A DNA stretch of 38,986 nucleotides from Clostridiales bacterium. GTDB taxonomy: Bacteria; Bacillota; Clostridia; Lachnospirales; Lachnospiraceae. A program made the translations under genes and the position numbers. A model generated the notes under the pieces. It had not been told where the DNA came from, made no database searches, and worked only from the letters and a program-made list of their open reading frames with translations. Positions 6,930 to 38,071 of the stretch are shown here, one piece after another. Position 1 is the stretch's first letter; the number at the start of each line of letters is the position of its first letter. Where the stretch lies: NCBI GenBank assembly GCA_014799595.1, contig JAAVHR010000058.1:1-38986 (forward strand), written 5' to 3'.

Positions 6930-6959
6930 TTAAGAGATATTTATAAATAATAAACCGAG

Positions 6960-7126
6960 ATTATTCACGGCCTTAAGCATGAACTAAGTCTTATGTAAGC
7001 TGAAGGCTTACAAATAATGACTTAGTCATGCTTAATAGGTCAATTGACGATGATTGCAGACAGGTGATGCTGTTAAGCAGCTCCTAGCTGCGATAGCAGC
7101 GGTCTGCAATATAGGACGTGAATAAT
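6960..7126. repeat. Branched hairpin element, third family (full-length copy)
   Basis: A perfect 10-bp closing stem ATTATTCACG/CGTGAATAAT encloses two long internal hairpins. The first uses TAAGCATGA-ACTAAGTC with GACTTAG-TCATGCTTA and has an inner GTAAGC-GCTTAC-type hairpin. The second uses ATTGCAGAC/GTCTGCAAT around a GCTGC-rich inner stem. The layout resembles a multi-branched RNA or a MITE with terminal inverted repeats. A shorter copy is at 24430 and a relic near 37990. No coding potential is visible. Confidence 0.8.
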
Positions 7127-7140
7127 TCCCCATAAATAAA

Positions 7141-7330
7141 GTAACTGTTCATGGTTCTGAACAGTTACTAAACTCCCATGCCTCGTACAATTAGGCATCA
7201 CCATAAATATATTCCGCATGGGAGTTTCGTAAACGATGATGCACACAAGTGCAAAAGCAGCACTTGGCACTTATACAAACCTTGCAGCAGAGTGCAAGGT
7301 TCTACCTGAAGATAGTGAATATATAGAAAA
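7141..7330 (-). repeat. Type II modular hairpin element (complete)
   Basis: This copy has the full plan: terminal palindrome (arms GTAACTGTTCA and TGAACAGTTAC), hairpin 2 (AAACTCCCATGC/GCATGGGAGTTT, 12 bp perfect), spacer, hairpin 1 (AACCTTGCA/TGCAAGGTT) and CTACCTGAAGATAGTGAATA. It directly follows the branched element at 6960, so the glgB-trmB gap is almost wholly repeat. Confidence 0.88.
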
Positions 7331-7338
7331 TAAAAATG

Positions 7339-13055: not shown

Positions 13056-13196
13056 ATGGAAAAATGGAAAGTAAAACTGGCACAACTTTCCAGTAATAAT
13101 ATAGAATTAAACCGAAAATCTTTGCAATTAAAACGTTCGTGGGATGAAGTGGCAAAGATAATTCATGCAGAAGAGAAAAAGAAAAAGAAAAAATAG
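13056..13196 (+). CDS. 46-residue basic protein with poly-Lys tail
   Basis: ATG 13056 is preceded by AGGTG and by a weak promoter (TTGAAT-17-TGTAAT). The product starts MEKWKVKLAQLSSNNIELN, contains a helical LKRSWDEVAKIIHAEE segment and ends in six lysines. I do not recognise it. The size, start signals and amphipathic helix suggest a real small protein, perhaps nucleic-acid binding. Its stop codon lies two bases before the type I element at 13198. Confidence 0.5.
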   Translation: MEKWKVKLAQLSSNNIELNRKSLQLKRSWDEVAKIIHAEEKKKKKK

Positions 13197-13197
13197 T

Positions 13198-13332
13198 GTA
13201 ACTATTTAGGTAGAAACACGCATTTACTGCGTGTTTCGTAAGAAAAAGTAAATTATGTAATGTTTAAGCCCCTTCGCCGAAGGCGAATTATTATGGGTTT
13301 AAACGTAACTGTTCATGGTACTGAACAGTTAC
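13198..13332 (+). repeat. Type I modular hairpin element
   Basis: GTAACTATTTAGGTAG, hairpin 1 (AAACACGCA/TGCGTGTTT), CGTA, spacer, hairpin 2 (GTTTAAGCCC/GGGTTTAAAC with inner TTCGCC-GAA-GGCGAA), and terminal palindrome 13305-13332. The palindrome is shared with the type II element that runs on to 13495, so the two form a head-to-head composite of about 300 bp. Confidence 0.88.
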
Positions 13333-13495
13333 AAAACTCCCATGCCTCGCACAATTAGGCATCATCATAAATATATTTCACATGGGAGTTTCGTAAACGA
13401 TGATGCACACAAGTGCAAAAACAGCACTTGGCACTTATACAAACCTTGCAGCAGAGTGCAAGGTTCTACCTGAAGATAGTGAATATATAGAAAAT
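13305..13495 (-). repeat. Type II modular hairpin element sharing its palindrome with a type I copy
   Basis: This copy closely matches the one at 7141: palindrome, AAACTCCCATGC hairpin 2, spacer, AACCTTGCA hairpin 1, CTACCTGAAGATAGTGAATA. The first 28 bases are also the last 28 bases of the element at 13198. Confidence 0.88.
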
Positions 13496-13513
13496 AGTCA
13501 AATTTAAGATAAT

Positions 13514-17250: not shown

Positions 17251-17285
17251 GTAAGATAAATAGAGAATCTGATTTTGAAACTTTT

Positions 17286-17420
17286 GTAACTGTTCAGAAC
17301 CATGAACAGTTACGTTTAAGCCCATAATAATTCGCCTTTGGTGAAGGAGCTTAAACATTACATGATTTACTTTTTCTTACGAAACACGCAGTAAATGCGT
17401 GTTTCTATCTGAATAGTTAT
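17286..17420 (-). repeat. Type I modular hairpin element (reverse orientation)
   Basis: On the minus strand: ATAACTATTCAGATAG, hairpin 1 (AAACACGCA/TGCGTGTTT), CGTA, spacer, hairpin 2 (GTTTAAGC.CC/GGGCTTAAAC region with inner TTCACC-AAAGGCGAA, slightly decayed) and the palindrome GTAACTGTTCA/TGAACAGTTAC. It is a close relative of the copy at 13198, and directly follows the MATE gene. Confidence 0.87.
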
Positions 17421-17538
17421 GAAACTTTTTATTTTATGCTCTTAGAATTTTGGTAGAATAGAATGATAAAATGGAAACTTGACGAAGAAGGGATGAGATT
17501 TCAAAATATTTCTAAAAGAAGTTAGTAATGGTTGTAAT

Positions 17539-23291: not shown

Positions 23292-23323
23292 AATTTACCC
23301 CTTTCTTAATTGTTGGTATCTCT

Positions 23324-23459
23324 GTAACTATTCAGGTAGAAACACGCATTTACTGCGTGTTTACGTAGTAAAATGTAAATTTTGATTGTTCTAAGCCCTT
23401 CGCCGAAGGCGAATTTTTATGGGCTTAGAACGTAACTGTTCATGGTTCTGAACAGTTAC
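23324..23459 (+). repeat. Type I modular hairpin element inside the ABC operon
   Basis: GTAACTATTCAGGTAG, hairpin 1 (AAACACGCA/TGCGTGTTT), ACGTA, spacer, hairpin 2 (GTTCTAAGCCC/GGGCTTAGAAC, 11 bp perfect, inner TTCGCC-GAA-GGCGAA), terminal palindrome. It is inserted between ATPase and permease genes of one operon, opposite in orientation to them. Its GTAAC end supplies the TAA stop of the ATPase gene (read on the minus strand ACG-TAA). Confidence 0.88.
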
Positions 23460-24403: not shown

Positions 24404-24429
24404 AATATCCTCCATTTGATATATCCTCA

Positions 24430-24535
24430 ATTATTCACGTCCTATATTGCAGACTGCTGCTATCGCAGCTAGGAGCTGCTTGACAGCAGCACCTGTCTGC
24501 AATCATCGTCAATTAATCTATTAAGCATGAATAAT
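24430..24535 (-). repeat. Branched hairpin element, third family (internally deleted copy)
   Basis: On the minus strand it reads ATTATTCA-TGCTTAATAG, then the ATTGCAGAC/GTCTGCAAT-type hairpin with GCTGCT-rich inner stems, then CGTGAATAA. Relative to the copy at 6960 the first internal hairpin is missing, leaving a shorter closing stem. It lies directly upstream of the ABC operon start codon, so it would be part of that leader. Confidence 0.78.
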
Positions 24536-24588
24536 CCCGGTATATCACTATAATTTAGCCAAAAACTGATATGCCACCTTTTGTGACA

Positions 24589-27889: not shown

Positions 27890-28555
27890 ATGCATAAGAA
27901 TAGAAAAATATGGGGGAGTATAACAGCACTCCTTAGTGCATTGGCGGTTTTAGTTGCCATAATTTCTGGGCAGTCTTTGGATGCAAAGACAAAGATTAAG
28001 TTGAACAAAACGAAAATTTCCCTAGAGGTCGGTCAAACTAAACAATTAAAATTAACAGGAACAAAAAAGAAAGTTACATGGAAGAGCAGTGCGGCTAAGA
28101 TAGCTGCTGTTAATAAAAAAGGTAAGGTAACTGCTAAGAAGGCAGGAAAAGCAACGATTACAGCAAAATACAATAAGAAGAATTATACCTGCAAGGTTAC
28201 CGTAAAAGCACAAAGTATAAAAAAAGATGGTAAGTATGATGTGAAGAAGGATGTACAGAAGTATTTGACAAAATACCACTGTCTGCCATCCAATTATATT
28301 ACAAAAGCAGAGGCAAGGGAGCTTGGATGGAATGGAGGCGGATTAGATTCTTATCAGTATGGAGCTTGTATTGGCGGAGATTACTTTGGAAATTATGAAG
28401 GGTATCTGCCAAAGAAAGATGGACGTTCTTATTACGAGTGTGATATCGATACCATGCATAAGGATAGTCGTGGAGCAAAACGCATTGTATATTCCAATGA
28501 TGGATTGATATATTATACAGAAGATCACTATCAGACATTTGAACTTCTGATGTAA
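27890..28555 (+). CDS. Secreted barnase-type ribonuclease with N-terminal bacterial Ig-like (Big_2) domain
   Basis: ATG 27890 follows ATAGGAGG. Residues 1-32 are a signal peptide. Residues ~35-107 are a Big_2 immunoglobulin-like domain (KTKISLEVGQTKQLKL ... KKAGKATITAKYNKKNYTCK), a fold used for surface or matrix attachment. Residues ~115-221 closely follow Bacillus barnase: NYITKAEARELGW, CIGGDYFGNYEGYLP, SDG-like loop and TEDHYQTF. Catalytic residues are kept: E183 (barnase E73), R194/R198 (R83/R87), H213 (H102), and K139 (K27). It should therefore be an active extracellular guanyl-preferring endoribonuclease, possibly an antibacterial effector. The stop codon TAA is provided by the end of the next repeat element, and the inhibitor gene follows it. 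Confidence 0.92.
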   Translation: MHKNRKIWGSITALLSALAVLVAIISGQSLDAKTKIKLNKTKISLEVGQTKQLKLTGTKKKVTWKSSAAKIAAVNKKGKVTAKKAGKATITAKYNKKNYTCKVTVKAQSIKKDGKYDVKKDVQKYLTKYHCLPSNYITKAEARELGWNGGGLDSYQYGACIGGDYFGNYEGYLPKKDGRSYYECDIDTMHKDSRGAKRIVYSNDGLIYYTEDHYQTFELLM

Positions 28556-28687
28556 CTATCCAAGTAGAAACACGCATTTACTGCGTGTTTCGTAAGAAAA
28601 AATGAAGGTTGGTTTGTTCTAAGCCCTTCGCCGAAGGCGAATTTTCATGGGCTTAGAAAGTAACTGTTCATGGTTCTGGACAGTTAC
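28552..28687 (+). repeat. Type I modular hairpin element between RNase and inhibitor genes
   Basis: GTAACTATCCAAGTAG, hairpin 1 (AAACACGCA/TGCGTGTTT), CGTA, spacer, hairpin 2 (GTTCTAAGCCC/GGGCTTAGAA with inner TTCGCC-GAA-GGCGAA) and a palindrome with one altered base (GTTCTGGACAGTTAC). Its first base pair step overlaps the RNase stop codon. Confidence 0.88.
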
Positions 28688-29723: not shown

Positions 29724-29778
29724 TTCTGTGGTTTTGATAAAGAGAGTAAGTGGTTATACTATACAAGTAAAGAGTTTA

Positions 29779-29831
29779 GTAACTATTCAGGTAGAAACAC
29801 GCATTTACTGCGTGTTTTGTAAAAAAAGTAA
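29779..29831 (+). repeat. Partial type I element (5' end and hairpin 1 only)
   Basis: GTAACTATTCAGGTAG, hairpin 1 (AAACACGCA/TGCGTGTTT), TGTA and the first part of the spacer are kept. Hairpin 2 and the palindrome are absent. Confidence 0.8.
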
Positions 29832-37989: not shown

Positions 37990-38019
37990 AGTCATCTGCA
38001 ATATAAGTCGTGAATAATT
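37990..38019. repeat. Relic of the third (branched) repeat family
   Basis: GTCATCTGCAATATAAGTCGTGAATAAT matches the last part of the element at 6960 (GTCTGCAATATAGGACGTGAATAAT) with a few changes. The rest of the element is missing. The remaining 37894-38071 gap shows no other feature I can support. Confidence 0.65.
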
Positions 38020-38071
38020 AAGGATTAAAAGATATAAAAATGTGTACTTTAATGAATAAGAAGGGAAAAGA

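Follow-up and report, generated by a model that had tools for sequence, protein, structure and literature searches.

A multi-copy MITE of Lachnospiraceae with IS1380-like ends and a branched fold conserved between genera

The window analyzed here is a 38,986-bp contig from a Clostridiales bacterium of the Lachnospiraceae (GCA_014799595.1, JAAVHR010000058.1). It contains three copies of a short, folded repeat, all of them recognized in an initial annotation made from the sequence alone (Table 1). The complete copy lies 25 bp past the stop codon of glgB (6929), and a shorter copy lies on the minus strand, 21 bp ahead of the likely start codon of an ABC gene (ATG, 24403), in agreement with the gene placement first reported. 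The third, recorded as a 3' fragment near 37990, is a 5'-truncated fragment ending at 38023.

The copy near glgB had been described as a 167-base element (6960-7126) with a perfect 10-bp closing stem and two interior hairpins. Folding bears this architecture out (RNA, -76.1 kcal/mol, z = -10.3; DNA, z = -11.6). The bounds required revision: copy alignment and comparison of flanks across multiple copies indicate that the terminal CCNNN and NNNGG bases are part of the repeat, and the unit is therefore 10 bp longer, a 177-bp sequence (6955-7131) of the form CCGAG-ATTATTCACG...CGTGAATAAT-TCCCC. The final bases of its right end are mutated; the ends of the family are written CCGAGATTATTCACG...CGTGAATAATTGAGG. 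No ORF of 100 or more amino acids lies within these 177 bp, so the element is short and without a transposase gene, as expected of a MITE. The second copy, which spans 24425-24540, has lost the first hairpin and kept a closing stem, as originally described; that stem is 9/10 (ATTATTCATG/CGTGAATAAT).

Table 1. Coordinates of the MITE copies, their parts and their target-site duplications. Positions refer to the window except in the last row.
Feature	Position	Strand	Remarks
Left target-site duplication, ATAAA	6950-6954	.	Identical to 7132-7136
Complete MITE copy, 177 bp	6955-7131	+	Termini by multi-copy flank comparison; orthologous sister-species site empty
Left end CCGAGATTATTCACGGC, IS1380-type	6955-6971	+	16/17 against Lachnospiraceae IS1380 left end, e.g. 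L178, L186
Closing-stem 5' arm ATTATTCACG	6960-6969	+	Pairs with 7117-7126; helix 97% paired over 32 copies
Hairpin 1	6973-7035	+	Fold and covariation; in-place loss in several orthologous copies
Conserved linker GTCAATTGAC, mini-palindrome	7039-7048	+	Kept in three genera
Hairpin 2, stem with two sub-hairpins (about 7063-7084, 7087-7100)	7053-7110	+	Consensus fold
Right end CGTGAATAATTCCCC; family consensus CGTGAATAATTGAGG	7117-7131	+	Consensus 14/15 against IS1380 right end CGTGAATAATTCAGG
Right target-site duplication, ATAAA	7132-7136	.	Directly outside element
Target-site duplication, TATAT (plus-strand left)	24420-24424	.	
116-bp derivative without hairpin 1	24425-24540	-	Orthologous sister-species insertion bears a different deletion
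Target-site duplication, TATAT (plus-strand right)	24541-24545	.	
Relic truncated at its 5' side: hairpin 2 (3' part) and right end CGTGAATAATTAAGG, then ATTAA	37980-38023	+	
Copies with nested GTTACTATTCACGG...CCGTGAATAGTAAC element	L028 about 1501-1863; L020 about 1501-1857; L089 1-242; L033		

The family is far larger than the three copies initially noted. A search of the carrier's own genome (G000, a 3.44-Mb draft that is 84% complete) returned 48 matches at E<=1e-3, and at least 40 copies of the MITE are present. When up to two mismatches are allowed, the end motifs are found 87 and 62 times, compared with 3 and 1 for a reversed control pattern. Genome-wide pairing of these ends, a check proposed in the initial annotation, yields 43 two-ended elements of 37 to 373 bp; dozens of copies share the terminal inverted repeats CC(N3)ATTATTCACG / CGTGAATAAT(N3)GG that a MITE should have. 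Inspection of the flanks, proposed at the same time, revealed ATAAA and TATAT around the two longer window copies and a perfect 5-bp duplication in 29 of the 43 two-ended copies, whereas shuffled flanks gave a mean of 2.9 and a maximum of 9 over 2000 shuffles. Matches at other lengths are close to absent (perfect in one copy only at three or at four bases, in none at six to eight), which sets the duplication at exactly 5 bp. Its consensus is W-T-W-A-A.

All 29 copies examined for genomic context are intergenic by crude ORF calling, and several end 2-6 bp past a stop codon. Viral contigs gave zero matches to the exact core pattern. End pairs spaced 0.4-4 kb apart in the carrier genome were chance pairs only, without perfect target duplications, and none of them represented an autonomous copy. 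A left-end match at the end of contig C117 was considered as a partner and rejected, since it belongs to a composite in which hairpin 1 harbors a second repeat. At the other extreme of size, three mini-elements of 45-50 bp in G000 are hardly more than two ends (C64:6135-6179, C51:4244-4293 and C83:20635-20679); their 5-bp duplication is perfect in two and has one mismatch in the third, and the C51 mini-element is a full-length copy in the sister species G002.

Six other congeneric species were screened, and two of them carry the family. In G002, the glgB-trmB gap is without the element, and its flanks are about 97% identical. Since the repeat is multi-copy, is flanked by 5-bp duplications in 29 of 43 cases and is missing from this sister-species site, we consider it a non-autonomous MITE; its occurrence is neither single nor vertically conserved. 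A repeat from a different family, 195 bp long and containing GTAACTGTTCATGGTTCTGAACAGTTAC, begins 6 bp beyond the glgB MITE (7138-7332) and is likewise missing from the G002 gap. It recurs in the window at 1957-2151 and 13302-13496 and is present in numerous copies in G000, G002 and G003. Yet another dispersed repeat family, characterized by GTAACTATTCAGGTAGAAACACGCATTTACTGCGTGTTTC hairpins, is found at 13183-13336, 17282-17435, 23323-23459, 28551-28687 and 29765-29827.

Comparison of orthologous copies also bears on how the shorter forms arose. At the 24430 site, the insertion and its TATAT duplication are common to G000 and G002, whereas the deletions differ: in G000, loss of hairpin 1 fuses the left end to TTAGTCATG, and G002 has another deletion of the same region. 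The common ancestor therefore most simply had a full copy, and hairpin loss, judged from these orthologues, occurs in place, at resident copies. The original reading of the 24430 copy as a deletion derivative thus stands, with the deletion placed in situ. Three further sites have a full element in one species and a 43-80 bp remnant in the other, and orthologous copies have shed hairpin 1 or almost the whole interior while their flanks are still 94-98% identical. Given the different deletion in its G002 orthologue, we do not regard the 116-bp form at 24430 as simply a separate mobile subfamily; such a subfamily is possible for the form common to G000 C103 and G002 C22. In several copies, a second inverted-repeat element of roughly 200 bp, GTTACTATTCACGG...CCGTGAATAGTAAC, lies inside the hairpin 1 loop, at an identical or almost identical position across copies, and it is missing in one G002 orthologue. 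It would be either a loop-targeting element or part of a composite spread by conversion.

The CC terminus together with a 5-bp duplication of A/T-rich sequence pointed to the IS1380 family, and IS1380 genes were searched for afterwards and found. Species of the same genus without the MITE carry IS1380-type genes, intact or relic; in one of these, G004, the match to PF13701 reaches 7e-160, and the protein is named IS1380 by NCBIfam NF033539 (395 bits, cut-off 180). A scan of GTDB genomes for IS1380 gave 80 loci. Complete Lachnospiraceae IS1380 elements are about 1.65 kb long, start with CCTAGATTATTCACGGC or CCTGAATTATTCACGGC and end with CGTGAATAATTCAGG, and many are flanked by 5-bp duplications of A/T sequence (for example ATAAT, TTTAA and ATTAG). 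The MITE consensus agrees with these ends at 16 of 17 positions on the left and 14 of 15 on the right, with a common asymmetry (AGATTATT left, AATTATT right). Similarity is confined to the ends, with none in the interior, and the target duplications of MITE and IS1380 agree in being 5 bp and A/T-rich. Among characterized members, ISEcp1 generates 5-bp duplications in A/T-rich targets (PMC2887853), and IS1247 has a 5-bp DR (PMC3281130).

Taken together, these features make it highly probable that the element is a MITE moved in trans by an IS1380-family DDE transposase, with a 5-bp W-T-W-A-A duplication; its fold probably serves the mobile lineage. Searches of the carriers G000, G002, G003, G153 and G173, all of which are drafts, detected no intact IS1380 gene. 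Since multi-copy IS elements are often missing from draft assemblies and MITEs commonly lose their partner, this absence leaves the evidence incomplete without contradicting the partner assignment. The same absence could be taken to favor a transposase of another family (e.g. IS4/IS1634-like or Tn3-like), with the likeness of the ends due to chance or common descent, and several DDE families do duplicate about 5 bp. However, we regard such a partner as unlikely in view of the close identity of both ends, their same asymmetry and the same 5-bp A/T target, as well as the presence of IS1380 in the same genus and of a 37-codon C-terminal IS1380 relic in carrier G003.

Relatives about 70% identical to the MITE were found in two other genera among 299 sampled genomes of the bacterial family. 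Full copies from these genera adopt the same three-way-junction fold (z = -15.4 and -10.7), with much of hairpin 1 different in letters. Across 32 aligned sequences, pairing holds in 96.5% of the alignment cells, and two-sided changes are seen in 23 of 51 pairs, compared with 7.9 +/- 2.0 after shuffling and 3-9 with slid partners; all three stems of hairpin 2 have such changes in the consensus fold. Covariation within the genus alone is weak (8 pairs). Judging from these compensatory changes, the branched fold is conserved across genera. G153, from another genus, has many related ends, partly of the CATTGAGG variant, and numerous right-end motifs of a variant type, CGTGAATCATTGAGG (e.g. L302, L306, L307, L311), several of them at very short or truncated elements. 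By its altered ends, the CGTGAATCATTGAGG group is a sister MITE family.

Strong folding (z between about -10 and -15) together with cross-genus covariation might also be expected of a host-serving structured RNA, riboswitch-like or an mRNA stabilizer, that has merely spread and is kept for function at each copy, and the upstream gene has the same orientation as the element in 19 of 29 copies. This orientation bias is not significant, and no Rfam covariance model matched above its gathering score. Departures to G-U and A-C are about equal (39:27, p = 0.18, not significant) and thus give no evidence that selection acts on one RNA strand. Insertion sites differ among species, and orthologous copies lose hairpin 1 or the interior in otherwise well-preserved flanks. 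A host RNA of this kind is consequently very improbable. Two roles were first offered for the closing stem. The duplications, the empty site and the IS1380-like ends favor transposon ends over the base of an RNA structure; the structure is conserved, with no sign of action as RNA. Because the fold is kept between genera while resident copies decay, it looks selected in the mobile lineage and not at each insertion site.

The fold could also have a mutational rather than a selective origin, compatible with a MITE, if template-switch quasi-palindrome correction keeps the arms complementary. This process is known in bacteria, and the arms of hairpin 1 are long and near-perfect, where correction is efficient; it stays a rival for these long arms. 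As an account of the whole fold, it is a possibility that we think should be taken seriously but do not favor, since stems of 3-9 bp covary too (helices 6-9, among them the tetraloop sub-hairpin and the stem of hairpin 2) and unrepaired mismatches build up in single copies. More speculatively, the three-way junction may be a functional transposon part, with extruded cruciform or hairpin DNA that joins the ends serving an IS1380-type DDE transposase, or else a host factor; mobility selection would then keep the shape while letters turn over and copies rot.

In the mechanism that we propose for the MITE, an IS1380-family DDE transposase would act in trans, cutting or copying the element at its CC(N3)ATTATTCACG / CGTGAATAAT(N3)GG ends, and insertion would take place into A/T-rich intergenic targets with 5 bp duplicated (W-T-W-A-A). 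The presumed IS1380 partner would be lost or unassembled in present carriers. The three-way junction, which the inverted ends close, might help end synapsis or make transcribed insertions tolerable. After insertion, slipped-strand deletion could take out hairpin 1 or leave almost nothing of the interior; in the case of hairpin 1, slippage may occur, for example, between the flanking near-direct repeats TTATTCA and TTAGTCA/TTATTCA.

On sequence criteria, the repeat makes up a new family within a known class, the MITEs: it is short, has inverted repeats and a fixed duplication, and is multi-copy with empty sites. An abundant, undescribed Lachnospiraceae repeat family thereby gains a likely enzyme partner, and it offers a comparative case, with structure kept between genera and single copies decaying, in which the strong folding of bacterial MITEs becomes testable. 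In the limited literature collection searched, no IS1380-partnered MITE was described. Compared with IS1380 insertion sequences (NF033539/PF13701; ISEcp1, IS1247 and the Lachnospiraceae elements), the MITE is alike in termini, asymmetry and 5-bp A/T-rich duplication, but it has 177 bp, no transposase gene and an unrelated interior, whereas those elements have about 1.65 kb and a transposase. MITEPye1, a bacterial MITE with IS1182 ends (PMC11578231), and the TIMEs, with Tn3 ends (PMC4133298), are similarly short, non-coding, RNA-foldable and intergenic, with IS-like inverted ends and target duplications. The present family differs from them in its IS1380 partner, its much higher copy number, a fold kept between genera and the branched, three-way form of that fold. 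REPINs with RAYT (PMC3116915) are likewise non-autonomous mobile sequences that form hairpins and show compensatory changes; unlike REPINs, the present MITE has DDE-type inverted-repeat ends and 5-bp target duplications.
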